Virus record (IMG/VR): IMGVR_UViG_3300035182_000788
Span: 1 to 45,490 of that record
DNA: 45,490 bases
DNA from: a virus
Reading direction: 5' to 3' (one strand)
How positions within the stretch are numbered: the stretch's first letter is position 1; each line of letters opens with the position of its first letter. The position numbers and the translations under genes were made by a program. Shown here piece by piece: positions 23,925 through 45,490 of the stretch. The notes beneath the pieces are model-generated. The model worked only from the letters and a program-made list of their open reading frames with translations. It was not told the origin of the DNA and searched no databases.

Positions 23925-23948
23925 GGAAGTTCTCCATATTTCGATCGA

Positions 23949-24257
23949 TCAAAGATCGAGCGTAACGGGCGCCGGGCGCTTTTTGCCGGGCAGAAGCTGC
24001 CACAGGCCCGTTGCCGTCTTGGCCTTCGTCGCGGTGTTGATCTCGGGATCCCACGCGTTGCCCTGGCTGTCAACGTCGGTCAGATCGGTCAGATCGGTCG
24101 AGCCGCCGGGAACCTTGGGCAGTTCGGGCTCGACCTTGCCGCCGACCTTCGACGGGTGATCGTGCCAGCCGGCCGGAACTTCGTCAGCGCTCTCGAACAC
24201 GTCCGATGCACCGTTGGGGCCATAATGCCACGCGGGCCAGTTTTCTGTTTCACGCAT
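23949..24257 (-). CDS. Hypothetical virion-region protein, 102 aa
   Basis: It starts MRETENWPAWHYGPNGASDV with DEVPAGWHDHPSKVGG soon after. This Trp/His-rich N-terminus is common in small phage proteins located near head-completion genes. It holds a short repeat TDLTDLTD. It ends VTLDL. Function unknown; it may be a minor structural or decoration protein. Confidence 0.65.
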   Translation of the reverse strand: MRETENWPAWHYGPNGASDVFESADEVPAGWHDHPSKVGGKVEPELPKVPGGSTDLTDLTDVDSQGNAWDPEINTATKAKTATGLWQLLPGKKRPAPVTLDL

Positions 24258-24279
24258 TTTCGTTCTCCGTTCAATATCC

Positions 24280-26532
24280 TTAGAAGGCTTTTAGCCCAAC
24301 ATAGTTCAGGGCCGCAGCAACACCTGCTGTCGTGACGATAGCACGAACTTGCTCGGCGTAAACATTGTTGACCGTAAGCTGCACGGTCGAAGCGGTTACA
24401 GCCACCAGCGGCGCCCCAATATTGTACCAGGACACGCCGTTGTCGTCCGAGCCTTGAAGCTGCAGAGCCGGGGCCGTCGTAGTGATCGTCCCGGCCGAGA
24501 TCACAAGCTGCATGTTGCGGCAGGCCGAAAGCACAACCATGAACGCCGTGACCGCGTTCAACGCCTGTGCCGCAGTCAAGGTGCGGTCGAAGATCTTGCG
24601 AAGCGGCTGCGCGCTGTCGCTCGATTGCAGTCGGTTGATCGCGCGCGTGAAACTTGGCGTCGTACCCGAAACCGTCTGGACGTACCGCACGCGGTTGCCG
24701 GTCAACGGAAGCTTGGGTGAACGAAGGAAACCAACGGCTGTGATCCGCGGGAAGTGGTAAACGTCGAACCAGTTCGTGCCGCCGTCGTCCGATTCTTGGA
24801 TCACAACGTCAAGTGTCGGCGTCGTACCCGAAACCACCGTCACCGGAATATTCACTTCATACGAGCAACCGAACGTCGGTGTGATCGCTGCCGTCGTCGT
24901 GGTTGTCGTAAGGGCAGCGGATGCAACGTCAGCGATCGTGCCTGGAATATTCAGATTGGCCGCGGTCACCGATCCAACCGTTGTGACCGCCGTAACGGTC
25001 GAAACCGTCGTTACTGTCGTGACCGCCGTAACGGTGCCAACGGTTGTGAGCGTGCCGGCGCCGACGACGACTTGACTATTCGTGGGCGCTCCCAAGCGCG
25101 CCATGACGCCCTGAACGCTCAATACGGTGCCCGTCGTGGTGACTTGGACACGGACGTACTTGTAGCCGGCGGTGCTGGCGCGATACGAGCCGACAGCCGA
25201 GATCGTCAGCGCTGGCGCGGTCGTGCCGCCGGCAACATTGACGCCGATTGTGTCCCAGGTCGTCAACGACGGATCGTTGGTGCCTTGAACGGTCAAAACC
25301 GTCGTGGTCACGGCCGAAATCTGGATCCCGATTTCTTGGATGCCGGTGGTATCGAGCGGGCCGACCAGCGTTTGACCAGCCGTCACGGTGTAGAACCAGG
25401 GCAGCAGCATCGTGGCGCCGACCTGCCCATAAGCCACCATATCGACCGCAACAGTGCCCGACGTGTATGCAGTCATCGTCGCACGCAACTGGACGGACAC
25501 GGAGTTCGGTGCACCGACGACCCAAAGGCCCGTAGTCGTCGAAGTCTGCACGGTTTGCGCCGTTGCAGTCGTCGCCGGCATGGCGTTGATGTTCTGCCAG
25601 GATGCACCACCGTCGATCGACGATTGGAACGTCAGCGTACCGACAAACTGCGTAGTTACCGCTGCCGGGTTCGTCACCGACAGATAATAGCTGCAACCCC
25701 CTACGACGGTGAAAGCCACCGAGCCGTTCAGTGCTGCGATCGTGTTCGCGGCTGGCTTCGCAAAAAGCTGTGGCGGATTGGATTTGACCGGAATTGCCGG
25801 CTGGTCGGACGCCAAGACTTGCGACATTGAATTTGCCGACGTCTTTTGCCCGAGCGTTGCCGGAAGCTTCGCGCTCATTGCCGCAAGCGTTGCTTCGGTC
25901 GCCGCGCCGTTCAGCGTACCGAGATTTACCGTCGGCGTCGCTGCAAACGCGGGCAGGGTGCCAACGATCGTCGCGTTCACATTGTCGTCGATTGCGTTGA
26001 TGTTGCCCGACAGTGGCGCAGCGATGACTGCGCCTGTGTTGATGTTGACCCACACCGATGCCGAAACCGTCGGCGGAACTGCGACCATGTTGAGCGTGAT
26101 AATATGCTCGATCACGTCACCGACCGAATATCCCGTGCCGCCAGCCGTCGCGGTGTAGGATTGGGCGACAAGCTGGAGCCCTGAATTTTTCGACGCAGGT
26201 GTGACAGGTGCCGTCGGTGTTCCCGCAACGCCTGTCGAGACGTTGTAATACAGGAAAATACCGCCGCCCTGGTCCTGCATGATCCAGTAAACGCCATTGC
26301 TGTCGATCACAAGATTGTCGGCAAGGCTGGATCCGCCACCGCCACCGCCACCAGTCAACGGGACAACGGTCCCAATCGCATTCACGGTGCCCGCGATCAC
26401 GACGGCCACGGCCTTCGCACTCACCATTTCCGGCTGGTTGACGTTTGCCTGATTTATGTCGACGTCGCGAACCGCTGCGAACTTGTCGGGCGCGTTCGTG
26501 CCGTAAAATGGGGCGGACGGATTGATGGACAT
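24280..26532 (-). CDS. Large beta-rich structural protein, 750 aa
   Basis: The sequence is dominated by Val, Thr, Ala and Gly with predicted beta strands and little charge. It has a glycine run (PLTGGGGGGGSSL, residues ~59-70) and a Val-Thr block with TVTAVTTV units near residue 505. Repeated motifs of the kind PTLDVVIQESDDGGTNWFDV and ALQLQGSDDNGVSWYNIGAP indicate several similar discoidin- or Ig-like modules. It follows the coat terminator, so it is probably expressed separately from coat. Likely a head or tail decoration or fibre protein. Confidence 0.65.
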   Translation of the reverse strand: MSINPSAPFYGTNAPDKFAAVRDVDINQANVNQPEMVSAKAVAVVIAGTVNAIGTVVPLTGGGGGGGSSLADNLVIDSNGVYWIMQDQGGGIFLYYNVSTGVAGTPTAPVTPASKNSGLQLVAQSYTATAGGTGYSVGDVIEHIITLNMVAVPPTVSASVWVNINTGAVIAAPLSGNINAIDDNVNATIVGTLPAFAATPTVNLGTLNGAATEATLAAMSAKLPATLGQKTSANSMSQVLASDQPAIPVKSNPPQLFAKPAANTIAALNGSVAFTVVGGCSYYLSVTNPAAVTTQFVGTLTFQSSIDGGASWQNINAMPATTATAQTVQTSTTTGLWVVGAPNSVSVQLRATMTAYTSGTVAVDMVAYGQVGATMLLPWFYTVTAGQTLVGPLDTTGIQEIGIQISAVTTTVLTVQGTNDPSLTTWDTIGVNVAGGTTAPALTISAVGSYRASTAGYKYVRVQVTTTGTVLSVQGVMARLGAPTNSQVVVGAGTLTTVGTVTAVTTVTTVSTVTAVTTVGSVTAANLNIPGTIADVASAALTTTTTTAAITPTFGCSYEVNIPVTVVSGTTPTLDVVIQESDDGGTNWFDVYHFPRITAVGFLRSPKLPLTGNRVRYVQTVSGTTPSFTRAINRLQSSDSAQPLRKIFDRTLTAAQALNAVTAFMVVLSACRNMQLVISAGTITTTAPALQLQGSDDNGVSWYNIGAPLVAVTASTVQLTVNNVYAEQVRAIVTTAGVAAALNYVGLKAF

Positions 26533-26543
26533 GAAACAACTCC

Positions 26544-26587
26544 AAAAATAAGGCCCCTGCTCTGTCGCGGGCTACAGAACAGGGGCC
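26544..26587 (-). terminator. Rho-independent terminator after the coat gene
   Basis: On the minus strand GGCCCCTGTTCTGT pairs with ACAGAGCAGGGGCC (one G-T mismatch) around an 8-base loop and is followed by TTATTTTT. It lies 39 bases after the coat stop, a usual place to limit read-through from the most strongly expressed virion gene. Confidence 0.85.
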
Positions 26588-26625
26588 ACCAACCTTCGCC
26601 CGGAGAACTAGACGAAGTGCATCGC

Positions 26626-27942
26626 TTACGCGGTGCCGTTGATCCGCACCAGGCGGCGACGCTCGCGAATGTTGTAGTTCAGTGCGACGTCGAACCGGAC
26701 CCCGTGCTGCCCGGTGTAGAAGTCGCTGTGCTGCCACATGCGGACAGTCAGCGGGATCTTCGACAGCTTGCGGCGCATGGACGTGTCGGAAGCGGGCAGG
26801 ATCAACGGAACGGTGTTGACCACGATTGCTTCCTTCTGGATCGCGAGACGCGGCCCGTACTGCGTCGACGCGGTGCCCATGAACGTCAGCACGGCGTTGT
26901 CGGCCGGTGCAGCGTTCACGGTGGCATGCGCGGTGTTGATCGCCACGTTGTCGCCCACGTCCGAGCCGGGAACGATCATCGCCGGGAAGATGACCAGCGT
27001 TACCGCGCCGCCGCCCGAAGCCGTTGCTGCCGTAACGACGGTGAACTGCTGCAGACGTGCCGGATTGACCAGCGCTTGCTTCCGGTTGTCGTAGGCATAG
27101 ACGCCGGGGATGGTGAACACGTCACCAACCGCGTAAGTCGCTGCCGCACCGGCAGCGTCGCAAATCAGGGTCTGCGTCATGCGCAAGCCATTGCGCGTGC
27201 CGGCCTTGGCGACGTCGGCATAGTTGACGTCCTGCGCCGCGCCATTGATTGCCGTTGCGGCAGTCGCAGCGCGCGATCCGGTCTGTATCACGGGAAGCTG
27301 CTGGGTGAACATCGTCTTGATGCCGTTCACTTCGCCCGAGAAGCCCTTGCGATAGGCATTCATAACCGTGGCGTCGCCCGACAGGCCGATGACCTGATCG
27401 CCAAGCTGTTGCTTGTCGTAATAGTTCAGCACATAGGCGAGATCGTTATCCTCGACGCCCTCTTCCTTGAGCCGGGTGTAGCCGGCTGCGGCATCGGTCC
27501 ATGTGTTGATCGCGTCGCCGGACGTGCCGGTCCAGTTGTTGGAAGCCAGCGTCGCGCCACCGAGAATGTAGGCGTCGATCGATTCCGCCAGCGACGTCGC
27601 GGCGCCGAGCAAAGCCTTGCTCTCGCGCGCCTGGCCGATCGTGGTGATCTTGACGAAATCGCCCCAGCCCATGTTGGCGTTGAACGTGCCGGTGATCTCG
27701 AACAGTTCCGAGCCGAACACGGTGCCGTCGGTGCCGCCCGAGAGATCCTTCACACCGTTTTCGGTGCGGGTGATCCGATAGCGCGGCGTGACCTGTTCGA
27801 GAACCTGCAGACCGTTGCGGTCGTCCATTTCCCCGTCGTATTCGTTCCAAGTCACAATGTCGGACGTGACCAGGTTGTTCTGCAAGGTCATTGCGAACAT
27901 GTTCAGAACCAGCTTTTGCTGTTCGGCAGTAACGGCACCCAT
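26626..27942 (-). CDS. Major capsid (coat) protein, P22 coat-like, 438 aa
   Basis: ATG 27942 (MGAVTAEQQKLVLNMFAM) has AAGGAAGGG upstream; an in-frame start 75 bases earlier lacks it. The pattern follows the P22 coat family: N-terminal helix, TFNANMGWGDFVKITTIGQA region, and the C-terminal signature TGQHGVRFDVALNYNIRERR. The HK97-like fold builds the T=7 shell. It follows scaffold directly and is followed by a strong terminator. Confidence 0.85.
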   Translation of the reverse strand: MGAVTAEQQKLVLNMFAMTLQNNLVTSDIVTWNEYDGEMDDRNGLQVLEQVTPRYRITRTENGVKDLSGGTDGTVFGSELFEITGTFNANMGWGDFVKITTIGQARESKALLGAATSLAESIDAYILGGATLASNNWTGTSGDAINTWTDAAAGYTRLKEEGVEDNDLAYVLNYYDKQQLGDQVIGLSGDATVMNAYRKGFSGEVNGIKTMFTQQLPVIQTGSRAATAATAINGAAQDVNYADVAKAGTRNGLRMTQTLICDAAGAAATYAVGDVFTIPGVYAYDNRKQALVNPARLQQFTVVTAATASGGGAVTLVIFPAMIVPGSDVGDNVAINTAHATVNAAPADNAVLTFMGTASTQYGPRLAIQKEAIVVNTVPLILPASDTSMRRKLSKIPLTVRMWQHSDFYTGQHGVRFDVALNYNIRERRRLVRINGTA

Positions 27943-27991
27943 GAGAGATCCCTTCCTTGAAAAGCCGGTCGGGATCTCCCTTACGGCGAAA

Positions 27992-29134
27992 CTATCTACG
28001 TCCGTTGCGTTGTTCATCCTGACGGACCAGCTTCTCGAAATCGTCGAGATTGTCGGTCGCCGGGCTGATACTCACCCTCGAATTTCCACCGCGGGTCCGT
28101 GTCGTCGGGGGCGTGGGTGCCCCGGGAAGTCTGCGCCGCGTGATCCGATCTTGGATTTCGGTGTTCTTCCGGTCGATGTAGCGAACCTGCTGAATATCGC
28201 TCATATTGAACAGCTTTTCGGCTTCGGCAGGGTTTTTCGCGAGATTGTAGAGGATCCGTGCCCCATGCTCGATCTCGGGATCTGACGCAGCTTCGAAAGC
28301 TGTTTTCGACAGTTGCCACTTGGTTTTCATGGTGACTTCCTCGAAGTCATCATAAATTGCCGAGCCCTTTTCCAGCGTCGACTTTACCGTCGCCGCAAGC
28401 TTTTCTTGCTCGGCCTTCTGGCCTTCTGTCTGCTGGTTTTCCTGCTGACGTTGCAGGTCCGCGTCGGCTCGTTCGGCCAGCTTTTTTTCAGCTGTCCAAT
28501 TGATCCGGTCCTCGACATATTGGGCGTCCAGGTGCCCCAGCGGGTATTTGGTCTGATCCAACGGATCCGGCCCCGGCCCCAGCTTGTCGACGTTATTACT
28601 TGGTGCCTGGCCGGCTGGCAAGCCCGTTTTTTCCAGCGCTGCAAGGCGGGCGTCGATCGCCGCCGTATCGAGCCGTGCAAGGCGCGCTTCGGCTTCCCGG
28701 GCACGCTGCAAATACTCGGAACGCTCGCGCTTGAGCCGCTTCATTCGGCCTTCGGCGGTTTCCCTTTTTCCGCTGGTTTCGTCATCCCCATCGTCTTGAT
28801 CGCCGCCCTGATCTTCTCCCTGATCGTCGCCCGCGTCGCCATCATCTTCGCCAGATACGCGGCCGAGATCGAGATCGAGATCATCATCGTCAGCACCAGC
28901 CCAGCCACCAGCATTTCCGCCATCCCCTGCGCCCTGATCGCCTGCATCGGCACCAGCCGCAGCGGCAGGTGCAGCAGACGCAGCAGCAGCAGGTGCCGCG
29001 GCTGGCTTCGGTGGCGCACGGCGCGCAGTTTTTGCCGGCTTGGCGGCTTCGGCCGCTACCAGGTTGGCGTCGCCTACCTGAACTTCTCCCGCGTTGGCAA
29101 AAGCCGTGAATTCGCTGTCATCTGTCCCGCTCAT
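27992..29134 (-). CDS. Scaffolding protein, 380 aa
   Basis: It lies between portal and coat. It is highly acidic and low in complexity in the first half (ADDDDLDLDLGRVSGEDDGD, residues ~80-100), then a long helical, coiled-coil region rich in Lys/Arg/Glu/Gln (RMKRLKRERSEYLQRAREAE). The C-terminus is basic, as needed to bind coat. It would guide procapsid assembly and leave before DNA entry. The start overlaps the portal stop (ATGA). Confidence 0.8.
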   Translation of the reverse strand: MSGTDDSEFTAFANAGEVQVGDANLVAAEAAKPAKTARRAPPKPAAAPAAAASAAPAAAAGADAGDQGAGDGGNAGGWAGADDDDLDLDLGRVSGEDDGDAGDDQGEDQGGDQDDGDDETSGKRETAEGRMKRLKRERSEYLQRAREAEARLARLDTAAIDARLAALEKTGLPAGQAPSNNVDKLGPGPDPLDQTKYPLGHLDAQYVEDRINWTAEKKLAERADADLQRQQENQQTEGQKAEQEKLAATVKSTLEKGSAIYDDFEEVTMKTKWQLSKTAFEAASDPEIEHGARILYNLAKNPAEAEKLFNMSDIQQVRYIDRKNTEIQDRITRRRLPGAPTPPTTRTRGGNSRVSISPATDNLDDFEKLVRQDEQRNGRR

Positions 29135-31365
29135 TGTGTTACTCCATTCGTGCTGTCTTGCGACTGATCGGCTGATCCTTCGCTATCCTGGCCGTCTCCG
29201 TCGGCCGGCGGATTTGCTGCAATTGCCGTAGTGGCGCTCGCATTGGCGTTCGCTGCGTTTCCGGCCGCGACCGTCTGGTGGGTTTTTGCCAAGGCCATAA
29301 TCACGTCGAGCGCGTGCTGACGATCTTCGGCCGAGAGCGTGTTGTGCTGATCGAGCGCATCGAGCGCGACCTTCAATTGGGCCGTCTCGTTTTGCTGGGC
29401 GACGTGATCCTGACGCGAATGTGCGTCGAGAACCGCCTTGTACGCCTGTGCGACCGACAGATGCCCGCGCGCTTCCGCTTCCGACGTTTTCGCGTTCATG
29501 TTCGCGAGTTTCGTCTGCAGTTCGAGCAATTGAACCTTCTGCTGCATTTCCTGGCTCTGCTGGTTTTGCGCCTGCATGGCCTTCATTTCTTCGGTCATTT
29601 CGTCTGGCGGGATCATGCCCGGGGGCAGCAGCATCTTCGCACGGCGCGCGAATTCGATCGACATGGGCCAATCTTGCGCTTCTGCGACCAGATCGATGAA
29701 ATTGCCTGCAACCTGCGGCAGCGCGTTGACGAAGCCCATCATTTGCTCGGCCGCAAGCTGGCGCTTGGTTTCGCTGGCCGGGCCCACGGTCACGGTCACG
29801 TTGTATTTGCCCATCGTGACGTCCGAATTCGGATCCGACGGATCATTGATCGTGATCGTATCGATCTTGCTGTCTGCGCCCATGATCGTCTCGACACGCA
29901 TCGTGTCGTAGTAATCGGGGATCAATTCGTTGATGTTGACTGCGCAGCGTTCGTCGGCAATTCGCGCGCGATCGGTGTAAATGTACGTGCCGACGTCCGA
30001 AACCGCCGACCGCTTCTGGATCGCCACGCCGGAAACTTCGTTCGACGGCATGCCAAGCGACGCTTCGTGTAGGTTCGAAATATCCTTGAGATCCTGCGTG
30101 GACGCGCCGGCTTCGTTGACCAAGGCAGCGTCGATCGCCGGGGGCGGAATGTGGATCGGCGCGGTTTCCCCGTCGTTGTAATAGAGGAACGGATCGGCCG
30201 AGACAGGCGAGCGGCGCCATTTGGCTTCGTGACCCTTCACCGCGTCGGGTGTCGTCAGCCACTTGTTCCGCGGCGCCGCGACAAGCTGTTCCGCGATCGT
30301 CGAGCGCCAATAGTTGTGCAACCGCTGCGGATCTTTGAGATTGCGGATCAAGCCCCAGCGATAGACGCGCTCGCCATCGTTCACTTCCCAGCCGGAAACA
30401 CGGTAAACCGGGATCGAGGAACAGTTCAGATTGTACGGGCCTTCAAGAATTTCGTTGCCCGAGCAAACGTAAAGCTGCGCAAAGCGCTTGGGCACTTCAC
30501 GAATATAAGGTTTGCCATCGGGACGTACCGCGACGTAGGTGGAATACTCGTATTCTTCCATTTCGGTGACGTCATGGACCGTGCCGTCTTTATACAGCGC
30601 GAGAACCTTGAAACCGTCCGTGACCATGCGCCAATAACTGACGATCCGAACGGTATCTTCCTGCATCCAGAAGCCGGATTGGTTCCAAGTGCTGTCACCA
30701 TAGAAGGACGTTTCGCTCGCCCAAGGCCAGCGCTGGGTGTATTCCTGCTGTGGAATATCCTCACCCACGAACGCGAACTGGCAATCCTTGCCCGACGGCT
30801 CGATCCCCAGCGGATCGAACACCGCAGCATAGGGATCGTAGATCGCGTTCAGGTTGATTTGCTGTTCGAAAACGTCGTCGTTGCAGTAGTCGACCGACAG
30901 GTAAAACGCACCCTGTCCGCCGATAATTTGATACTTGGCGGCTTCCGAGCGTGCGAATTCGGCGTTCGAATTCTTGAAAATGTTGCGGATCAAGCCTTCG
31001 CGAATGTTGGCAATCCCCTTGTCGCTGCCCTTGTCGGGCAGGACGCGGATCTCCGTTTCGTTCATCAGCCTGTCACCAATGACTTGTGCCAGGAAGGCCA
31101 CCAGCCGGTTGAACGTCAGTGTCGGCTTTTTCTCGTTGATCCGGCGCTGGCGGACGATCGGATCCCATTGCTTGTCGCCCACGACGAAACCAGCATCATC
31201 CTTGCCGGCGATGATGTTGTGTTCGTTGTACGAATAACCCCACTCGTACTTTTTGCGCATGTCGTTCAGGAAATCCGACGTCGTGTCGAACCCCTTCGGG
31301 ATCTTGACGGGCTTTTTCTGTGGCGCCAGATCTTCGGCGTTGATGCTATCGCGCAGACCAGCCAT
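29131..31365 (-). CDS. Portal protein, P22 gp1-like, 744 aa
   Basis: The length and pattern match P22-type portals (P22: 725 residues). The core includes YRVSGWEVNDGERVYRWGLI and RNLKDPQRLHNYWRSTIAEQ, a conserved stretch of this family. The C-terminal part is a helical barrel-like region rich in Gln/Ala/Lys (MQAQNQQSQEMQQKVQLLEL). Twelve copies form the DNA channel at one capsid vertex. It is preceded by an HNH gene inserted after terminase. Confidence 0.9.
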   Translation of the reverse strand: MAGLRDSINAEDLAPQKKPVKIPKGFDTTSDFLNDMRKKYEWGYSYNEHNIIAGKDDAGFVVGDKQWDPIVRQRRINEKKPTLTFNRLVAFLAQVIGDRLMNETEIRVLPDKGSDKGIANIREGLIRNIFKNSNAEFARSEAAKYQIIGGQGAFYLSVDYCNDDVFEQQINLNAIYDPYAAVFDPLGIEPSGKDCQFAFVGEDIPQQEYTQRWPWASETSFYGDSTWNQSGFWMQEDTVRIVSYWRMVTDGFKVLALYKDGTVHDVTEMEEYEYSTYVAVRPDGKPYIREVPKRFAQLYVCSGNEILEGPYNLNCSSIPVYRVSGWEVNDGERVYRWGLIRNLKDPQRLHNYWRSTIAEQLVAAPRNKWLTTPDAVKGHEAKWRRSPVSADPFLYYNDGETAPIHIPPPAIDAALVNEAGASTQDLKDISNLHEASLGMPSNEVSGVAIQKRSAVSDVGTYIYTDRARIADERCAVNINELIPDYYDTMRVETIMGADSKIDTITINDPSDPNSDVTMGKYNVTVTVGPASETKRQLAAEQMMGFVNALPQVAGNFIDLVAEAQDWPMSIEFARRAKMLLPPGMIPPDEMTEEMKAMQAQNQQSQEMQQKVQLLELQTKLANMNAKTSEAEARGHLSVAQAYKAVLDAHSRQDHVAQQNETAQLKVALDALDQHNTLSAEDRQHALDVIMALAKTHQTVAAGNAANANASATTAIAANPPADGDGQDSEGSADQSQDSTNGVTQ

Positions 31366-31368
31366 TTG

Positions 31369-31695
31369 TCATCCCCGTTTTCTGTAGCCGGTACGGCCGC
31401 GCATTGTGCCGTGAACCTTGGCGTCGTCCATGTTTTGTTGATGGGTGGCCCATCGAAGGTGTCGCTTGTTGATGCACGGGGCGTTACCACACCTATGCGC
31501 CGCCTCAAAGCCATCCGGCGCAGGGCCGTAAACCTTCTCGCAAACGTACCTGTGAGTATAGAAATTATGCTGTTTGCCGTGATGCCACAAGGAAAAATGC
31601 CCGTAGGGTGTTCCTGCGCGCAGAGCAAAGGGCCACAGAATACAATCGTCGGTTTCTGCTGCAATTGCTGCGTTTATGAAATGGATGCGTCGCAC
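31369..31695 (-). CDS. HNH endonuclease between terminase and portal, 108 aa
   Basis: The HNH_3-like core has YTHRYVCEKVYGP, then AAHRCGNAPCINKRHLRWAT (His, Cys pair, Asn and HL). The GTG start at 31695 shares one base with the terminase stop (TAGTG). It stops four bases before the portal start. It is the third free-standing HNH gene here and interrupts the terminase-portal pair, a recurrent site for such genes; HNH proteins near terminase can also aid packaging in some phages. Confidence 0.8.
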   Translation of the reverse strand: MRRIHFINAAIAAETDDCILWPFALRAGTPYGHFSLWHHGKQHNFYTHRYVCEKVYGPAPDGFEAAHRCGNAPCINKRHLRWATHQQNMDDAKVHGTMRGRTGYRKRG

Positions 31696-33728
31696 TAGCC
31701 CATCCAGGAAGTTGCATCGGAGGGGGCGTCGTAATAATCGTCGTCGAGCGCCGGCCCGCCGTTGTGTCCGAGGCCGTCGGGGTTGCCCATTCCCCAACCC
31801 TTTACCACTTTCGGCTTGCTCCAACTGTCAAAGAATTCCTGAACTGCAAAGGTCAGCGCACAGGCATCCGATAGGTCGCTCGATCGCAGCCCGCGAGCCT
31901 TCATGTCGGTTTTGCTTTCCAGCAGCCAATCGTTGTTGGCGCGGTACTTGATCTTGGGCCCTACAATGTCGGTTGCGAGATCGTCGTCGTCTGGGATCGA
32001 ACCACCTTCGACCAGCCAGACGCGGAAACGCTCGTAGATCTCGGCGCGGACGTTCCACGGGCCGGCGCGCTTCGGCGTGGCCTTCTTGAACTTCGACGTG
32101 CCGCCGAAATCGATACCCTTGATAAGTTCGAAATATTTCCGATTCTGGTTGCGCAGCGCCGACACAATGGCTGCACCCATCGAGCCGCGATCGATACAAA
32201 CACGGTTCGGATGGTATTCCTCGATCAACTGCGCGATCCAGGCCACCGCTTCGTCGTGTTCCAGCTTGTTGCGCACCAAGATCTTGACGATCTTGTCGCC
32301 GCGCCGGAAAGCTGCTGCGAAGCGGTCGCCACCGCCGCCGGCCGGATCAATGCCGAGGATCAACGGTGCGTCGGGATCTTCGAAGTGCCGTTTGCGAGCG
32401 CGCAGGACGATCGCGGGCTTGATAAAGCTGTCAATGTCGGCGCTCGAAAATGCTTCTACGACGTCGATCGGGTATTCCTGCCGGAATTTTCCTTCCGAAC
32501 CTAGTTCGTGGATCTTCGATCGGCGCCACAGCATTTGCTCATTCGAGAGCCCATGCAGTTCCTGATATTCGGCTTCGGAAAGCCCGCCTTCCTCTTCCGC
32601 TTCCTGTATCGGGACGAATTCACCATGCTCGACGTATTCTTTTTGCACGGTCCACGGCACGAAGGCAGCGCGGTACCGGCCGATTTTCTTCATCGCGTCC
32701 ATGTAGCGCTTGTGGAATTCGCCAAGCGGGCCAGCCGACGTCGTTTCCAGCCAAATTTCAGATGGGGCCTTTACCCATCCTTCAATCGTTCCAATTCCCC
32801 GCTCAAACGGCAGAGGATCACGCGGTTCGGTCCACAGGACGCCCCACACACCGCGCACTTCATCCACGGCTTGAACAGATGCAGAGAAATGATCGGGTGC
32901 GTTTGTCCACCAGGCGACTTCGGATCCGTGGAAAAACGACACGCCGCCACCACGTCCGCCAGCTTTTTGCCCTGCGGTGGCGACGGTGTAAGTGGATCCG
33001 CGCTTGGGGAATTCCAGTTCTTTAGCATTGTCCGTACCCACCTTTGGCGGGAAGGGATGCTTTTCCTGCATCAGCGCCGTCATGTCGAACAGCTTGCTTG
33101 ATGCCGTCATTTCGTGGGACAGAATGTAGATATTTTGCCGGTCCCACAGCGTTGCACGCCAATAGCCGCGGGCTGCAACCATCGTCGAAAAGCCCTGCCG
33201 CCGGCCCTTCAAGCCCGCCAGACGAACCCAGCCTTCGGCTTCAAGCTGCGCGTCGGCTGCAGCCAGCAGAATTTCCTGCGCTTCGTTCAGGATCAAGGGC
33301 TCAAGGTCGCCGGCCTTGGTGCGGATCTTGAGCGCTTGCCGGGCAAACAGCCGAAAATTTGCTTTCCAGCGTACCACCGTCAGGACCATGTACCGCGCGC
33401 GAACTTCGTCGACGGACATGCCTGCATCGGCGGCGATCTGTGGGATATTCAAGGCCACGCGTAAGCGATCTTGGCAGGGCATCAGAAAATCCTTGGGTGT
33501 GGTGGGCAGGCGCGTCGCGGCTGGATTGACATGGGCCTGAAATGGCTTTTGTTCGACGCCGCCATACTCTTTCAGCGTCCAGATGATGAATTCGATATTC
33601 TCGTTGAAACACGCCCCGAGCATCACCGCGGCCTTTGCCACGTCGTCGCCGGTTGCGTTCACAAGATCTTCGTAGTGGATTTGGAGCGTGGTTCCCAGGC
33701 GCTTGCTGGCTTCACGACGGGCGCTCAT
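31695..33728 (-). CDS. Terminase large subunit, 677 aa
   Basis: The ATPase domain has a Walker-A-like GLKGRRQGFST (residues ~166-176) and a long Trp-rich region. The nuclease domain begins LILGIDPAGGGGDRFAAAFR (~453), with RVCIDRGSMGAAIV following; the acidic residues fit the RNase H-like terminase nuclease. It drives DNA into the procapsid and cuts it. Its ATG overlaps the stop of the preceding LEYDL gene (ATGA). The size is above the usual 450-600 residues because of a long N-terminal region. Confidence 0.9.
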   Translation of the reverse strand: MSARREASKRLGTTLQIHYEDLVNATGDDVAKAAVMLGACFNENIEFIIWTLKEYGGVEQKPFQAHVNPAATRLPTTPKDFLMPCQDRLRVALNIPQIAADAGMSVDEVRARYMVLTVVRWKANFRLFARQALKIRTKAGDLEPLILNEAQEILLAAADAQLEAEGWVRLAGLKGRRQGFSTMVAARGYWRATLWDRQNIYILSHEMTASSKLFDMTALMQEKHPFPPKVGTDNAKELEFPKRGSTYTVATAGQKAGGRGGGVSFFHGSEVAWWTNAPDHFSASVQAVDEVRGVWGVLWTEPRDPLPFERGIGTIEGWVKAPSEIWLETTSAGPLGEFHKRYMDAMKKIGRYRAAFVPWTVQKEYVEHGEFVPIQEAEEEGGLSEAEYQELHGLSNEQMLWRRSKIHELGSEGKFRQEYPIDVVEAFSSADIDSFIKPAIVLRARKRHFEDPDAPLILGIDPAGGGGDRFAAAFRRGDKIVKILVRNKLEHDEAVAWIAQLIEEYHPNRVCIDRGSMGAAIVSALRNQNRKYFELIKGIDFGGTSKFKKATPKRAGPWNVRAEIYERFRVWLVEGGSIPDDDDLATDIVGPKIKYRANNDWLLESKTDMKARGLRSSDLSDACALTFAVQEFFDSWSKPKVVKGWGMGNPDGLGHNGGPALDDDYYDAPSDATSWMG

Positions 33729-33931
33729 AGGTCATACTCCAACGCAGCCGCTTCAACTTCGTCCAAGGTTTTCGGAAGTGGCTGGCCGTCGATCGTGGCG
33801 GCAGCGGCTCGCAGATCGTCGACAATGCCGGTACCCATCCAAGGATATTTGCGGTCGGTGCAGAGCGCGTCGGCAAATCGGTGTAGTCGGCCGGAAAGCC
33901 CCGCAGCTTTCCCATGTGGATTTTCATACAT
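33725..33931 (-). CDS. Small protein ending LEYDL, upstream of terminase, 68 aa
   Basis: It begins MYENPHGKAAGLSGRLHRFA and ends DEVEAAALEYDL. GGAGTATGACCTATGA at its end is the terminase start region. It is short and helical with no known family. The place between a putative small terminase and the large one suggests a packaging accessory role. The coupling sequence is almost the same as that on the opposite arm at 262-279. Confidence 0.7.
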   Translation of the reverse strand: MYENPHGKAAGLSGRLHRFADALCTDRKYPWMGTGIVDDLRAAAATIDGQPLPKTLDEVEAAALEYDL

Positions 33932-33951
33932 CGCAGGTTCTCCGTCTGCGG

Positions 33952-34290
33952 TTAAAGGTCGTAGAATTCCCCGTCGCTGACTTCGGTGTAGTCGGCAAGT
34001 GCCAACTGCGAATTCTGCCGTTCGAGCCGGTCAATGGCATCATCGATCGTCAGCGTGCCGGAAACGTCGACTTGCTGCGAGCGCGAGATCATCTTGGGGA
34101 AAAGCTTGGTGTAGAAGTCGGTCGGATTCTGGTCCGCCCAAGTTTTCATGCGGTCGGCTCCGCCAATTGCCTCAAAGCAATGCATGACTGCGGCACCCGC
34201 GTACCGACCGACATGCTGGTATTGCTCTGCCGAGATCGCGGGGAGCCCCGAGATTGCTCGAACAACAGGAAGGCGGCTATCTTCACTCAT
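33952..34290 (-). CDS. Putative terminase small subunit, 112 aa
   Basis: The segments FEAIGGADRMKTWADQNPTD, FYTKLFPKMISRSQQVDVSG and TIDDAIDRLER resemble proteins commonly found just before large terminases, which recognise DNA and stimulate the motor. There is no obvious helix-turn-helix. It ends GEFYDL, a variant of the recurrent C-terminus, but its stop does not overlap the next start. Confidence 0.6.
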   Translation of the reverse strand: MSEDSRLPVVRAISGLPAISAEQYQHVGRYAGAAVMHCFEAIGGADRMKTWADQNPTDFYTKLFPKMISRSQQVDVSGTLTIDDAIDRLERQNSQLALADYTEVSDGEFYDL

Positions 34291-34349
34291 TCCGGCACTC
34301 TGCCAGATCCCCGCGCGCGAGTAAAGACAACCGCCCCTGGGCGATAGGT

Positions 34350-34475
34350 TCAGCAGGCTTTGCCGTTACCCATTTTCTTGCCGCCGGCCATCTTGCCGCC
34401 GGGCTTGGCTGCAAACGGGTTCGGCTTGCCGCCTTTGCCCTTGGGCATCGCCTTTTTCTTGGTTGGGGCTTTCAT
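34350..34475 (-). CDS. Lys/Gly-rich basic peptide, 41 aa
   Basis: The ATG overlaps the preceding stop (ATGA at 34472-34475). The sequence is MKAPTKKKAMPKGKGGKPNP followed by FAAKPGGKMAGGKKMGNGKA and a final Cys. About a third of residues are Lys and there is almost no acidic residue, so it probably binds nucleic acid or a negatively charged partner. Coupling and skewed composition support coding, but function is unknown. Confidence 0.6.
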   Translation of the reverse strand: MKAPTKKKAMPKGKGGKPNPFAAKPGGKMAGGKKMGNGKAC

Positions 34476-34732
34476 AGCATTCCACCTTTCGTCGTTGTGC
34501 GCGTCGTCTTGGCGCCTGGATGGTCCACAGGCATCACCATGTTGCCGCTCGACGATGCAGGTGCCGGAGCGTTGGGCAGAGCCTTGGACGATGCCACCGC
34601 GGCAGTTGTGACCTTCTGGCCGGCCGCTTCGTTGATGCGCGCTTTGGCGCTGCTACCCGGGACACTGGAAACGTGCGGCGACACACTCGCGGCCTTTCCG
34701 GTGAACCCACGGGCTGAAAAATTCCTTGCCAT
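34472..34732 (-). CDS. Hypothetical Ala/Ser/Lys-rich protein, 86 aa
   Basis: ATG 34732 (MARNFSARGFTGKAASVSPH) begins just after the stop of the GP88-like gene. It is basic and largely disordered (ALPNAPAPASSSGNMVMPVD), with no family recognised. It is coupled downstream to the Lys-rich peptide gene, so the two may work together. Confidence 0.65.
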   Translation of the reverse strand: MARNFSARGFTGKAASVSPHVSSVPGSSAKARINEAAGQKVTTAAVASSKALPNAPAPASSSGNMVMPVDHPGAKTTRTTTKGGML

Positions 34733-34733
34733 G

Positions 34734-35540
34734 TCAATGCTCCATGAAGGCGACGTTTTTCGTGGTCGACCAGCACGCGCCACAGGTGGCACAGCAACGC
34801 GTCTTACCTGTTTGCTCGGGGCATATAAAGGCGTTTTGTGGCTTGCCTTCCTCGCTGCCGATCGAGACGGTTGCCATCGTCGGATAGGGTCCGTCGGACG
34901 TGCGGATCATGGCCCGCTTGCCCCATTCCATGCGCAGATGGTGCAGTGTCCAGCCGATCGTCGACTTGTTGGGGTGTGCGCTGTATCCGAACAGCGACAA
35001 ATTCTTGTGAGCGCGCAGCATACGGTCCCAAAAAGCCACATACTCGCTCGAATAGAAATCGCCAAGGGCGTGCAGCCGGATCAAGACGCCGTATTTCCTC
35101 TTGCACAGGACGGCAATCTCGGCTTCCAGCCGCGGCAGGAATTCGGGATCGGTATGGTCGATCCGTTTGGCAAATGGCATGTTGTTGCCGTAGCAGGTTT
35201 GCCAATGCTTGCATGTCGCGGGGCAAGTTTTGCGTTCTTCCAACGACAGGGTGTAGATCCAATACCCTTTCAGCAGACCCTTACGCACGTCGCGCCCGAT
35301 TTTGACGTTCGAGTGCCCCGAAACCAGCAGGTTCGTCATTTCGTCGGGGCGCAGCACCCGGCTGGTGAATTTGGTCCGTCCCTGCTGCACGAATGCCAGG
35401 GGACCGATCATGCCAAGGCGCGGCTGGTGCTTGCGGCGCTTCCGGTTGTGGTCGGTTTCGATGATCTTGACGAACCTGGACAGGGTGACATCATCGCCGG
35501 CCGCGACGGACGCCTTGCGGACCGAGACTAGCGGGATCAT
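34734..35540 (-). CDS. GP88-like cysteine-rich protein, 268 aa
   Basis: The sequence shows CPATCKHWQTCYGNNM, then IRLHALGDFYSSEYVAFWDR, then a C-terminal cluster CPEQTGKTRCCATCGACW. These three blocks fit the GP88 family known from mycobacteriophages and other phages (cysteine set, R-x-H-x-x-GD-F-x-S-x-EY, C-terminal Cys cluster). An Fe-S or zinc site is likely; the reaction is not established. The start at 35540 is fixed by overlap with the stop of the zinc-ribbon gene (ATGA). Confidence 0.65.
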   Translation of the reverse strand: MIPLVSVRKASVAAGDDVTLSRFVKIIETDHNRKRRKHQPRLGMIGPLAFVQQGRTKFTSRVLRPDEMTNLLVSGHSNVKIGRDVRKGLLKGYWIYTLSLEERKTCPATCKHWQTCYGNNMPFAKRIDHTDPEFLPRLEAEIAVLCKRKYGVLIRLHALGDFYSSEYVAFWDRMLRAHKNLSLFGYSAHPNKSTIGWTLHHLRMEWGKRAMIRTSDGPYPTMATVSIGSEEGKPQNAFICPEQTGKTRCCATCGACWSTTKNVAFMEH

Positions 35541-35662
35541 TCTGGCTTGGCCGTTGCGTTGGGGCATACGTGATTGTGGTTGTTGCTGCCGCAATTCGGG
35601 CATTCATAGACCGAAGATTTTTCGGGCCCCTTGAGGCGTGAGGGTGTGAAATTGTCGGCCAT
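35537..35662 (-). CDS. Zinc-ribbon micro-protein, 41 aa
   Basis: MADNFTPSRLKGPEKSSVYE is followed by CPNCGSNNHNHVC, a CxxC plus His/Cys set typical of a single zinc ribbon. Its stop overlaps the start of the GP88-like gene, so the two are translated together and may form a pair. It is preceded by the 94-residue gene, only two bases away. Confidence 0.65.
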   Translation of the reverse strand: MADNFTPSRLKGPEKSSVYECPNCGSNNHNHVCPNATAKPE

Positions 35663-35664
35663 AA

Positions 35665-35949
35665 TTAATCCCTATAGTCCTGGTTCATTATGTATTTTGC
35701 GGTGTCGAGAAGCCCAACTTGGGCAAGGTGTTCGAGATCTCCCGCTTGATACCAGCCAACACTGTCTTTTTCATCTTCACCGTTTTTATTGGCATAGACG
35801 ATAATCAGGTGGCGGGGCTCGCACTTGCCCTTTACTATGTCATCGAGAAACGCTTTTAATGCGTCGCCGGGATTGTGTTCGGACGCCCGGCCTTTTGCCC
35901 GTTCCCAACGTGCCCGCTCGAAGTCCGACATTACAGGGCCGTCAACCAT
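35665..35949 (-). CDS. Hypothetical protein, 94 aa
   Basis: ATG 35949 (MVDGPVMSDFERARWERAKG) is supported by TGGAGC about 8 bases upstream; ATG 35931 is an alternative. It has a mixed alpha/beta pattern with EPRHLIIVYANKNGEDEKDS and VGWYQAGDLEHLAQVGLLDT. From memory this is close to small phage proteins of unknown function that end in a strand-helix unit. The start overlaps the upstream zinc micro-gene by eight bases. Confidence 0.65.
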   Translation of the reverse strand: MVDGPVMSDFERARWERAKGRASEHNPGDALKAFLDDIVKGKCEPRHLIIVYANKNGEDEKDSVGWYQAGDLEHLAQVGLLDTAKYIMNQDYRD

Positions 35950-36046
35950 TGTGCTTGCTCCACAGGTTAATCTTGGTGATTTCCAGCACGCCCATGACGG
36001 ACGTGCAATGCGGGCAACGCCATTCTATTTCGAGCGACGTACTCAC
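35942..36046 (-). CDS. CxxC micro-protein, 34 aa
   Basis: The GTG start overlaps the previous stop (GTGA). The peptide STSLEIEWRCPHCTSVMGVL holds one CPHC pair and could form a half zinc site or a redox pair. Its 3' end overlaps the next ATG. It is the third very short zinc-type gene in the phage (with 35537 and 42635). Confidence 0.5.
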   Translation of the reverse strand: MSTSLEIEWRCPHCTSVMGVLEITKINLWSKHNG

Positions 36047-36228
36047 AAGTCACCGTAATGCTTTTGGGTGTTCATTACTTCGATCGCGGAAGCCAGCGCC
36101 ACGAGCCCGTCGACGATCGCAAGGGCAATGTCGAGCCCTTCCAGCATGACACCGCCGCGTACTTCGTCGGAACTTTCCACACCGTTAAAGGCGTCAGTCA
36201 CGGCTTGCTTGAAATATTTCGTTTGCAT
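36043..36228 (-). CDS. Hypothetical small protein, 61 aa
   Basis: It starts MQTKYFKQAVTDAFNGVESS and has a hydrophobic helix (GLDIALAIVDGLVALASAIE), more amphipathic than transmembrane. It ends KHYGDL, and its last bases GACTTGTGAG overlap the GTG start of the following gene. AGAG precedes the ATG. No family. Confidence 0.6.
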   Translation of the reverse strand: MQTKYFKQAVTDAFNGVESSDEVRGGVMLEGLDIALAIVDGLVALASAIEVMNTQKHYGDL

Positions 36229-36282
36229 CGCACGCTCTCCAAGTTGCCTATCAACCATATCAACGGCCGTGCGTTTGGCAAC

Positions 36283-36322
36283 AAAAAAGGCTGTCCCGGT
36301 TTGAAACAGAACAGCCTTTTTT
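36283..36322. terminator. Bidirectional Rho-independent terminator
   Basis: AAAAAAGGCTGT pairs perfectly with ACAGCCTTTTTT around a 16-base loop, giving a T-tract on either strand. On the minus strand it follows the gene ending at 36342 and precedes the 36228 gene. It divides the minus-strand small genes into two transcription blocks. Confidence 0.85.
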
Positions 36323-36341
36323 GGGGCCGGGGATTATTGGT

Positions 36342-36614
36342 TTACACCGAAGTGGGCGCAGGCGCGAGTGGCGCGAGAATGGCAAGCGCGTCTGCGATGA
36401 CCACAGCGGTCGCGTTGACGTCGGACGTGGTGGCCGCAGAATCCTCGTTTGGGAGATTGTCGGCCAGAGCTTGAGCGACGGTTTTCAGTTGCGTGGCGGA
36501 AGCCAGCAGCGCGGCAGAGGCAACGGACATGTCGTGGATCCTTGTATCAATTGATACCAACACAAAGACGTTGGCGATCAAAAGTAGCATCAATCCTGCG
36601 CCTGCGAAAACCAT
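36342..36614 (-). CDS. Small membrane protein, 90 aa
   Basis: One N-terminal transmembrane helix (FAGAGLMLLLIANVFVLVSI) is followed by an Ala/Thr-rich helical soluble part (MSVASAALLASATQLKTVAQ). There is no signal cleavage site. It is followed by a strong terminator. Function unknown; a role at the inner membrane is inferred. Confidence 0.65.
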   Translation of the reverse strand: MVFAGAGLMLLLIANVFVLVSIDTRIHDMSVASAALLASATQLKTVAQALADNLPNEDSAATTSDVNATAVVIADALAILAPLAPAPTSV

Positions 36615-36620
36615 TTTAGC

Positions 36621-37004
36621 TTACCCGTTGAAAGGCAATGGCTCCGTCGGATCCGGCTTTGCCAAGCGAATACCGTCGTCAAGGATTTCTCCCACGGTGT
36701 CAACGGGCTTGACTTCGGGAACGCTTGCCCGTGCCAGACGGATAGCAAGGATCCGGCGGTAGGCGCACATCGCGTCGTGCTGGGCATAGAGCAAGTCCTG
36801 GTCGATCGGCGGCAGGTTGATCCAGGGCGTGCTGCCGAGGAAATCGGATAGTTTGCCGATCCTCGTCGAGAGTTCTCGCAGTTCGACGTTCATGCGCCAC
36901 TCGTACCCGCCCAAGGGTTTCCCATCGGCTTGCTGGGCGACAGCTTCGTTAATATCCAGCTTTGATTTCTGTGCGATCATTGCGTCGCGTGAAATATTAC
37001 CCAT
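36621..37004 (-). CDS. crAss001_48-related small phage protein, 127 aa
   Basis: ATG 37004 shares a base with the upstream stop (TAATG). The central part (MNVELRELSTRIGKLSDFLG, then DLLYAQHDAMCAYRRILAIR) matches the helical pattern of the small crAss001_48-related family, common in many phages and of unknown role. A short acidic C-terminus follows. Confidence 0.6.
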   Translation of the reverse strand: MGNISRDAMIAQKSKLDINEAVAQQADGKPLGGYEWRMNVELRELSTRIGKLSDFLGSTPWINLPPIDQDLLYAQHDAMCAYRRILAIRLARASVPEVKPVDTVGEILDDGIRLAKPDPTEPLPFNG

Positions 37005-42775: not shown

Positions 42776-44697
42776 TGCAGCCGCTTCCCCCGCAGTTGGA
42801 AGGCTGCAAAATTTTCCCATGCGCTCCAGGGACAAAGGATCCCGCGACCACGCATGGCTGGAAAGAGGCAAGCAACGATCCCGAGCAAATCGCGCGATGG
42901 ATGCGCGTCAACCCAGAATTCAATTGGGCCGTTGCGACTGGCCTTAGCGGGCTGTTTGTTTTCGACATTGACCCGGCCGGGCTCGATTGGTGGGCAAAGC
43001 TGCTAGAGCGCGACGCCCAGATACGGGAAGCGGTTTCCCGTGCATTCCAGGTCAGGACGCCCAAGGGCGGCTTGCACGTCTATTTCAGGGGTGAGGGGCC
43101 CAGCACGGCCAGCCGCATCGCGGAAGGGATCGACACCCGGGGCGGGATCAACAAGGCCGGGAAGATCATTTCTGGCGGCTATGTGATCCTGCCCGGATCC
43201 AAGACGAAGGCCGGGCCAGGGCGCGTTACCGGGATCTACGAAGCTTTGCCGGGCGGGGTGATTGCACCGCTGCCGACGTTCATGGCGGCGATCGTTCCCG
43301 AGCGGAAGAAAACCGACACGCTCGGACTGACCAAAAACCCCGACAAGGATCTGCCCCGGAACGTCAAGACGGCCAACGATCTTATCGAAAATTACGTCAA
43401 GTCGGGACGTGTTTCGGTTGAGGGGAAGGGGGGCAACAATCTCGCTTTCCAGGTCTGCGCGTCGATACTCGACAAGGCGATTTCGCCCGGGCTCGCGTTC
43501 GATCTGCTATGGGAAAAGTGGAACCCCTACTGTCAGCCGCCTTGGGATGAATGGGAACTGGAAACGCTGGTCCGCAACGCAGCGAACCACGGAGAGGATG
43601 CGGAAAGCGGGGCCAAGGGGCACCAATCAAACGAGGATGCGTTTGCGGCCTTCGTCGGCTATCAGGCGCCCGACATTGCCAATATCAGCAGCGAACGCCA
43701 AGCGCGCACCAAGCTGCAATTCATCCACGACTATGCCGATAGCGTGGGAGATCCCGAGTGGTTGATCCCGGGCGTGCTGCCGCGCCAGGGCGTCGGGATG
43801 ATGTACGGGGAAAGCGGAAGCTACAAATCCTTCATCGCGCTCGACCTGTGCCTGACGCTGGCCTTCGGGATCCCAGGGCAATGGGAGAACCCGAATCCCG
43901 AAAAACAGGATGTCCTGTATTTTGCCGGTGAGGGGCCTGTGGGCATGGCAAAGATGCGTTTCCCGGCTTGGATGGAACATTTCGGACAGGAATTCCGCAG
44001 CGACCATCGGATGATGTTCAAGAACCGCGTGCCCTTCTATTCGGACACGGAAGAGTGGGAGCATATCAAACAGGATCTGGGCGAGATCAAGGCCAAGCCT
44101 GTGCTGATCGTGATCGACACGCTTTCCCGGCTGATGACTTCGATGGACGAAAACACGTCCAAGGATGCTGTCACCGTTATGAATTTTCTCGAACAGCTTG
44201 CGGCCTATTATGAGTGCTTTGTGCTGTTCATCCACCACACCGGCAAGGATGCGAGCAAGGGTGCACGGGGATCTGTGGTCTATTACGCGAACGCCGATAC
44301 GGTCATGTCCACGCGCAAGCTGGAAAACGGTTCGCAGTTCAAGATCCACAAGCACAAAGACGCCGACGTAGAGGATAGCACACGCTTTTTCGAAGTGAAG
44401 CCCCGGCTCGATTCGATCGTGCTAGTCGAGACGAAAGACGCGCCGATCGAGATCGACAAAAAGGGCAAGGCGACGATCGGCTGGGCATCACTCAAGGAAG
44501 TGCTTGCGCTGCTGTCCGAGGAATTCCCGACCGGGACCACAACGGTCCATCTGGCAATGTCGATAAGCCTGAAATACGGCGTCGAGCGTGCCCGCGTCGA
44601 GCGGACGCTGATGGGCTCGGAAGAATTGAAAATTCTACACTCGGGCAACCAATGGTCCGTGCCGGGAACCGGGGAAAAGAAGGAATTTGACCTGTGA
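42775..44697 (+). CDS. Primase-polymerase with RepA-like helicase domain, 640 aa
   Basis: The N-terminal bifunctional primase/polymerase domain has GCKIFPCAPGTKDPATTHGW, VATGLSGLFVFDIDP (catalytic D-x-D) and RTPKGGLHVYFRG (His). A linker follows, then a RecA/RepA-type ATPase with GESGSYKSFIALDLCLTLAF (Walker A) and AKPVLIVIDTLSRLM (Walker B), then FIHHTGKDASKGARGS. It would prime and unwind DNA. GTG 42775 is chosen by the TAGTG overlap; longer in-frame readings would overlap the zinc gene. It ends KKEFDL, and the stop overlaps the methyltransferase GTG. Confidence 0.85.
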   Translation: MQPLPPQLEGCKIFPCAPGTKDPATTHGWKEASNDPEQIARWMRVNPEFNWAVATGLSGLFVFDIDPAGLDWWAKLLERDAQIREAVSRAFQVRTPKGGLHVYFRGEGPSTASRIAEGIDTRGGINKAGKIISGGYVILPGSKTKAGPGRVTGIYEALPGGVIAPLPTFMAAIVPERKKTDTLGLTKNPDKDLPRNVKTANDLIENYVKSGRVSVEGKGGNNLAFQVCASILDKAISPGLAFDLLWEKWNPYCQPPWDEWELETLVRNAANHGEDAESGAKGHQSNEDAFAAFVGYQAPDIANISSERQARTKLQFIHDYADSVGDPEWLIPGVLPRQGVGMMYGESGSYKSFIALDLCLTLAFGIPGQWENPNPEKQDVLYFAGEGPVGMAKMRFPAWMEHFGQEFRSDHRMMFKNRVPFYSDTEEWEHIKQDLGEIKAKPVLIVIDTLSRLMTSMDENTSKDAVTVMNFLEQLAAYYECFVLFIHHTGKDASKGARGSVVYYANADTVMSTRKLENGSQFKIHKHKDADVEDSTRFFEVKPRLDSIVLVETKDAPIEIDKKGKATIGWASLKEVLALLSEEFPTGTTTVHLAMSISLKYGVERARVERTLMGSEELKILHSGNQWSVPGTGEKKEFDL

Positions 44698-45490
44698 CCG
44701 CGTGGTATAACGAACCAGACCCTTACGCTGCGCAATGGCTTCGCAACCTGATTGCGGCTGGTCACATTGCGCCGGGCGTGATCGACGAACGGCCAATTCA
44801 GGAAGTCGAGCCGTTCGAACTGTCGGGCTTCACACAATGTCATTTCTTCGCCGGGATCGGTGTCTGGTCGCACGCGCTGCGCCGGGCGGGCTGGCCCGAC
44901 GATCAACCGATCTGGACGGGCTCTTGCCCATGCCAGCCGTTCAGCGCCGCAGGCAAGCAAAAAGGATTTTCCGATGATCGACATTTGTGGCCCTACTGGA
45001 AAAACCTTATTGACGTCTGCAAACCTGCAATCGTCGTTGGAGAGCAAGTTGCGTCTGCGCTCGAATGGCTCGATCTTGTATCGTCTGAAATGGAAGCAGC
45101 GGGCTACGCCTTCGGGGCGTCTGATTTGTGCGCTGCGGGGTTCGGCGGCGCGCATATCCGCCAGCGACTTTATTTTGTCGGGCTGGTCAACACCGAACAC
45201 AATGACAGGTGGGCAGACGAGCCGGGGCGGGGATCGGATCGGGGAACCGCTAATGGCGGGGCAGGCGGTGCTTTGCGGTTGGCCGACCACGACGACGCGG
45301 GATTGGAAAGACGGCTCGGAATGCCTGAACGTGGGGATCAACGGGCTCTTGGGCCGGGCGGTGTGGCTGGTGCAGCCCATGCGCCTATGCTCGGACGGGA
45401 AGCTGCTGACTGGCTTTTCTGCCGGGATGGAAAGTGGAGGCCAGTTGAACCCAGCTCATTCCCGTTGGCTCATGCGGCTCCCGCCCGAGT
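44694..45490 (+). CDS. Cytosine-5 DNA methyltransferase, N-terminal part, runs off the right end
   Basis: The GTG start overlaps the primase stop (GTGA) with AAGGAA upstream. The C5 methyltransferase motifs are in order: motif I FFAGIGVWSHALRRAGW, motif IV TGSCPCQPFSAAGKQ (catalytic Cys in PCQ), motif VI-like GEQV, motif VIII HIRQRLYFVG. The variable region follows, and motif X is in the left-end part. It would methylate cytosine in phage DNA, probably to evade restriction. Beyond ~45180 a second frame (+1) is also open and family-like. Gene complete only by circular joining. Confidence 0.85.
   Translation, partial: MTAWYNEPDPYAAQWLRNLIAAGHIAPGVIDERPIQEVEPFELSGFTQCHFFAGIGVWSHALRRAGWPDDQPIWTGSCPCQPFSAAGKQKGFSDDRHLWPYWKNLIDVCKPAIVVGEQVASALEWLDLVSSEMEAAGYAFGASDLCAAGFGGAHIRQRLYFVGLVNTEHNDRWADEPGRGSDRGTANGGAGGALRLADHDDAGLERRLGMPERGDQRALGPGGVAGAAHAPMLGREAADWLFCRDGKWRPVEPSSFPLAHAAPAR
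45202..45490 (+). CDS. Overlapping frame B of the methyltransferase, right-end part
   Basis: In the +1 frame the DNA reads GWSTPNTMTGGQTSRGG, then CGWPTTTTRDWKDGSECL, then [18 protein letters not shown] and onwards. GWPTP- and RDWKDG-type segments are common in the variable region of annotated phage C5 methyltransferases. The same bases in frame A read LADHDDAG, also a common type (LADAD). An in-frame ATG is at 45202. Wrapped to 259, it would give about 127 residues. Whether it is translated is unknown. Confidence 0.4.
   Translation, partial: MTGGQTSRGGDRIGEPLMAGQAVLCGWPTTTTRDWKDGSECLNVGINGLLGRAVWLVQPMRLCSDGKLLTGFSAGMESGGQLNPAHSRWLMRLPPE
45365..45490. repeat. Terminal direct repeat of the window, right copy
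   Basis: These 126 bases are identical to 39-164. The sequence just left of it differs from bases 1-28, although the protein it encodes in frame B remains similar (GLLGRAVWLVQP against [11 protein letters not shown]), so the left end may be a variant read or part of an uncollapsed internal repeat. Confidence 0.9.

Follow-up and report, generated by a model that had tools for sequence, protein, structure and literature searches.

A phage C5-cytosine DNA methyltransferase locus that probably encodes two subunits in overlapping frames of the same DNA

Introduction

Multispecific C5 methyltransferases of SPbeta-type Bacillus phages carry several short recognition modules between motifs VIII and IX. 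M.EcoHK31I, which recognises YGGCCR, has a small subunit of approximately 23 kDa, the gene for which lies inside that of the large subunit but in a different frame. The large polypeptide of this two-chain enzyme contains motifs I to VIII, motif X and the predicted TRD, and the small polypeptide contains motif IX (PMC3404938). M.AquI is also a natural two-subunit C5 enzyme (PMC3404938). Streptococcus thermophilus 5093-group phages have C5 methylase products whose genes overlap totally, in different frames, according to the part of PMC5601072 considered here, which, citing earlier work, places the same overlap in a S. pneumoniae phage and in Tn5252; the overlapping arrangement is therefore already known. 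In the half of Streptococcus phage 5093 spanning 18000-37000, no methylase is annotated.

In this study we examined a methyltransferase locus in a viral contig (IMG/VR record IMGVR_UViG_3300035182_000788), all 45,490 nucleotides of which are termed the window. An earlier note on this DNA had proposed that the 3′ end of the gene is open and family-like in two frames, and that a frame switch might exchange its recognition and C-terminal regions. We conclude, with a probability of roughly 0.86, that this is the locus of a split C5-cytosine DNA methyltransferase, both subunits of which are read from the same DNA. The product of the long frame (frame A) is termed alpha and that of the +1 frame (frame B) is termed beta.

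Results

Layout of the locus

The contig is circular, with an exact repeat of 126 bp at its ends (Table 1), and because of this repeat the methyltransferase gene runs from 44694 to the last base of the window and then from 165 to 279. Frames A and B are both open across the join. The TGA of the upstream gene overlaps the GTG start of alpha (44694-44697), and the TGA of alpha overlaps the GTG (276-278) of the next gene. Both frames end in LEYDL, at 259 and 279, just as the earlier note had read them, and the full ending of frame B is LLEYDL. These endings derive from a repeated stop/start box, GGARTWTGACCTRTGA, which occurs seven times in the window (0.8 copies expected) and which at gene ends combines a ribosome-binding site with an overlapping stop and start.

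The contig break falls within the beta module array. Bases 1-28 of the window, before the left terminal repeat, differ from the bases that precede the right-hand copy, and have no exact match among viral contigs. This difference is possibly a module polymorphism in the phage population.

Table 1. Positions in the window of the features of the methyltransferase locus.
Feature	Position	Strand	Remarks
Terminal repeat, left copy	39-164	+	right copy 45365-45490; marks the circular join
GGARTWTGACCTRTGA copies	244, 264, 1069, 7390, 7560, 33725, 44682		33725 on the minus strand
alpha, N-terminal 265 of 303 codons	44694-45490	+	resumes at 165-279 beyond the join
alpha, C-terminal part after the join	165-279	+	stop TGA 277-279
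alpha motif I, FAGIG	44847-44861	+	
alpha motif IV, PCQPFS	44928-44945	+	
alpha motif VI, EQV	45042-45050	+	EQV replaces ENV
alpha motif VIII, RQRLYFVG	45159-45182	+	
alpha motif X	160-195	+	by sequence; aligned with QLRIIGNGVVPQ of single-chain ShiLan gp70
Candidate ribosome-binding site, AAGGA	44962-44966	+	7 nt before ATG 44974, inside the alpha gene
beta subunit (predicted)	44974-45490	+	internal ATG 44974; open frame and synonymous constraint; continues at 165-259
beta, C-terminal part after the join	165-259	+	stop TGA 257-259
beta module 1, GWSTPNTMTGGQTSRGGDRIGEPLMAGQAVLC	45181-45276	+	NTMxGGQxSR family, recurs in other loci; putative recognition role
beta module 2, GWPTTTTRDWKDGSECLNVGINGLLGRAVWLVQ	45277-45375	+	RDxKDGxxCxNVPxNxLLGR family; frame B coding pattern
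beta motif-IX-like segment	119-166	+	near-invariant in the beta alignment; matches single-chain RLAPAFSEWMMGWPAGW

Frame A encodes a catalytic chain

Frame A comprises 303 codons, from the GTG at 44694 to its TGA beyond the circular join. Its product matches Pfam PF00145 (E=6.5e-15, 55.8 bits against a cut-off of 22) and PHROG 363 (E=7.4e-74 over residues 2-292), and it carries C5-methyltransferase motifs I, IV, VI and VIII in the order that the PF00145 family requires. Motif X is present in this frame as the earlier note had claimed, at 160-195 and not at the proposed 167-202, and its GNA is invariant in the alpha alignment. The alignment of this motif with QLRIIGNGVVPQ of ShiLan gp70 was made by position and sequence, the profile match itself being weak. 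Between motifs VIII and X, alpha has neither a conserved recognition region nor motif IX, both of which PF00145 enzymes have there in the same chain.

A search of GenBank phages with the two tails gave matches to 183 phage records for frame A, confined to the last ~55 residues, and to 194 for frame B, along its whole length. Both frames are thus open and protein-like, as had been noticed from the letters alone.

Register and selection in the two frames

We collected 354 loci from viral contigs (found with alpha or beta queries), bacterial genomes (found with the beta profile) and annotated phages, some contigs being represented more than once. In 348 of them the N-domain and tail A share one frame and tail B lies at +1; four of the remaining six are cut before the N-domain and two have a displaced register. 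The +1 register is present in 80 of 80 viral loci obtained with the alpha profile, a set that was not selected for frame B, and in 80 of 80 bacterial loci obtained with the beta profile.

Synonymous shuffling of frame A predicts an open frame B core in 8.9 of the 83 non-redundant alpha-selected loci, and we observe it in all 83; for the bacterial loci the corresponding values are 6.9 expected and 68 of 69 observed. Frame C is open in none of these loci. In the tail, shuffling that preserves frame B predicts an open frame A in 3.8 of 79 loci, and all 79 are open. Additional genes in the other frames were also considered and rejected, as over the beta region frame C is open in 0 of 97 loci and the antisense frames in at most six of 97.

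Modules picked by regular expression favour frame B, and we therefore used a frame-blind count in which pairwise BLASTN segments were picked without regard to frame. Substitution rates in the variable region measured in this way are 0.43 at A1 (=B3), 0.23 at A2 (=B1) and 0.16 at A3 (=B2). Amino-acid identity between motifs VIII and X is 0.44 in frame A, 0.47 in frame C and 0.74 in frame B, which makes the conserved segment that of frame B. In the variable region it is frame B that selection maintains, frame A being merely kept open; the suggestion that the frame A tail forms an alternative recognition domain fails on this absence of amino-acid conservation. Over the last ~60 codons both frames are constrained, with identities of 0.75 and 0.72 (frame C, 0.64). 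Both frames are under selection, and the constrained stretch of beta starts within alpha. Neutral substitution in frame B had been named earlier as the sign of a mis-annotated frame; substitutions in frame B instead follow the pattern of a coding sequence, so the mis-annotation reading fails.

These measurements also bear on the possibility that frame B is untranslated and that its likeness between phages simply follows from the conservation of frame A and a high GC content. About one tail in three does keep frame B open after synonymous shuffling, such that single loci are not decisive. However, conservation in the variable region is far stronger in frame B than in frame A, the free codon position is B3, and synonymous sites of frame A are constrained solely within the span of beta. 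The nested +1 beta gene is also found in Paenibacillus phage Diva, Lactobacillus phage Lc-Nu and Bacteroides phage BS-TP4, where GC content over the gene is 47-49% and synonymous shuffling leaves the frame open with a probability of 1e-4, 6e-3 and 1e-3 respectively. On the strength of the shuffles and of these loci at 47-49% GC we rejected the by-product explanation, which retains almost no likelihood.

Frame B is most likely a nested gene

The product predicted for frame B from the internal ATG is 203 amino acids long (21.9 kDa) and lies wholly within frame A. Codon diversity in alpha, expressed as observed over expected, is ~0.85-1.0 up to codon -86 relative to the junction at the end of motif VIII, and 0.2-0.7 from codon -85 onwards. 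The drop is located at QPFSAAGK in viral and bacterial loci alike, and the candidate ribosome-binding site and ATG (44962-44976) lie just downstream of it. Among 57 relatives, 37 have an SD sequence and start at codons -78 to -68 (22.3 expected). The internal start codons, which lie at -70 to -77 before the junction, are TTG, ATG or GTG. No single beta start codon is conserved across relatives, and a few (e.g. Bas70 and W5_chr3) have no clear start at -70 to -77. From the drop in codon diversity ~85 codons before the junction together with the internal start, we consider that frame B is most likely a nested gene inside frame A.

The frame switch originally proposed would act differently: a ribosomal or DNA-level slip at the end of motif VIII would fuse the N-domain to tail B and so change specificity. 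Consistent with this, tail B starts at the end of motif VIII in many relatives, and in two loci (L013 and L014) the register is broken beside nine consecutive Gs. Such a switch does not, however, account for a frame B that is open and constrained ~75-85 codons further upstream than the start first assigned to it; programmed frameshifting would leave constraint only downstream of the shift site, and here it begins ~85 codons upstream. The enrichment of an internal ribosome-binding site and start in relatives, the lack of a conserved recognition domain in tail A to be exchanged, and the loss of motif X from a fusion of the N-domain to tail B also argue against it. Since the constraint begins upstream of the junction, we exclude a switch at that point as the principal origin of frame B, and regard such a mechanism as very unlikely. 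Rather than interchangeable tails, the two products look like complementary subunits.

L013 (2980-3110) and L014 (1100-1210) are the sole loci with a displaced register, and their nine Gs fall within the module that directly follows motif VIII. The displacement may be an assembly error, a shared defect or a phase-variable tract. The same G9 run occurs in L191 and L331, where the register is normal.

Contents and relatives of beta

The conserved parts of beta are GSTLYKLTWKxxxTPSGRxxxxLRAS, a series of W-x-T-P units and the motif-IX-like segment, the first 46 bases of which are repeated at 45445-45490 as part of the terminal repeat. In nearly all loci beta contains between one and six W-x-T-P units, and the module families recur at different loci and positions; the RDxKDGxxCxNVPxNxLLGR family, for example, is present in 39 of 216 beta sequences. 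As the earlier note had suspected, frame B resembles annotated phage methyltransferase tails: beta matches PHROG 31772 and PHROG 1008, both labelled DNA methyltransferase, as does every one of the 37 sequences in a beta alignment.

Single-chain mycobacteriophage enzymes provide a further comparison. After motif VIII these proteins have, in one frame, LLPTP modules, then RLAPAFSEWMMGWPAGW and then QLRIIGNGVVPQ. The beta profile matches the LLPTP modules and RLAPAFSEWMMGWPAGW in ShiLan at 17.8 bits. The motif-IX matches, all of them to these single-chain enzymes, are short (14-18 bits). The occurrence of the same pieces in one frame supports a split enzyme. In ShiLan and prophiGD91-2 (L357 and L359), a short +1 frame has a beta-like start and LLPTP modules, and more modules come after it in the main frame. 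This arrangement looks like an intermediate between the split and single-chain forms.

Beta might instead be a genuine nested protein with another function, for example a regulator, a decoy or a restriction inhibitor. It has no match in Pfam or NCBIfam; AlphaFold models built from 37 and 106 sequences have low confidence (pTM 0.30 and 0.32), a Foldseek search of the PDB with the first model gave no significant structural match, and the beta profile found only weak peptidase matches among PDB sequences. On the other hand, alpha has no conserved recognition region or motif IX and beta has both types of element, the single-chain relatives place the same modules and motif IX between VIII and X, and alpha and beta keep a constant register in 348 of 354 loci. 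We judge a function outside the methyltransferase to be unlikely, if a little less so than a frame switch.

Annotation of related loci

Most of the records that we opened have only one of the two genes annotated. Both are annotated in K1ind1, PhiXhv-5 and Diva, in the last as 'g49 internal gene'. At the methyltransferase locus of Pseudomonas phage Riah (801-1712) there is no annotated forward gene, just a short antisense one. In Pseudomonas phage PMG1 the core is open, but in-frame stops interrupt the N-terminus of alpha and its matches fall into two pieces, which suggests a frameshift or a damaged start.

Discussion

As judged from sequence, the C5-methyltransferase motif complement is divided between alpha and beta. 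According to the split-enzyme model that we favour, alpha would be the catalytic large domain, consisting of motifs I to VIII, a long linker without conserved sequence, and motif X. Beta, starting from its own ribosome-binding site inside alpha, would form the small domain, with an N-terminal helix and hairpin, a row of short putative recognition modules (GWxTP) and motif IX; this assignment is based on the order of the sequence elements and on short matches, as the predicted fold is too uncertain to guide it. Both chains would most likely be made from one message, beta through internal initiation, and would combine as a single active enzyme, which would methylate the phage's DNA at target sites set by the beta modules. 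Such methylation would most plausibly let the phage escape host restriction, a role suggested by the general role of phage methyltransferases. We also infer that beta is translated as a free protein, that it binds alpha and that its modules recognise DNA.

A broader proposal is that phages of several bacterial phyla carry the whole recognition half as a nested gene whose modules are shuffled to change or widen specificity, with the catalytic gene over this region merely kept open. We hold the chances of this to be about even. If it is true, one stretch of DNA would act as a catalytic linker when read in frame A and, when read in frame B, as a combinatorial recognition array.

The part that would decide specificity has most likely been overlooked in many phages, where the second half is usually unannotated. 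Many phage methyltransferase annotations would then be without the specificity-setting subunit, and attempts to express the annotated gene by itself, or to classify it, may fail or mislead. The hundreds of loci also form a large natural set for the study of long same-strand overlapping genes, and the family could make phage methylation specificity, and its change through module exchange, directly testable.

With the SPbeta-type enzymes the locus would share an array of short recognition modules; those multispecific methyltransferases are single chains, whereas at this locus two chains are predicted and the array would be on a separate, nested subunit. ShiLan gp70 and its prophiGD91-2 counterpart likewise share related LLPTP modules, a motif-IX-like segment and then motif X, but all of their motifs lie in one frame, with only a short beta-like remnant at +1.

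The closest parallel by description is M.EcoHK31I, in which the large chain has motifs I to VIII and X, motif IX is in the smaller chain, and the gene for the small subunit lies out of frame inside that for the large one. Beta differs in having one to six modules and in its phage and prophage setting. Furthermore, the recognition region would here belong to beta, whereas the predicted TRD of M.EcoHK31I is in its alpha chain (PMC3404938). Because a TRD in the large subunit is lacking, we class the locus as a variant that would work like M.EcoHK31I and not as a member of that group. M.AquI is more distant, being split inside the recognition region, so that its small subunit carries motif X as well as motif IX, while alpha here keeps motif X.

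The overlaps in the S. thermophilus phages, the S. pneumoniae phage and Tn5252 are similar by description in that two C5-methyltransferase-like products come from the same DNA. In the part considered, PMC5601072 notes the overlap alone; the division of motifs, the selection on each frame and the internal start are analysed here. The limited literature that we searched contained no description of such a division of labour between two chains, in which the nested gene would carry the recognition array, or of its extent.
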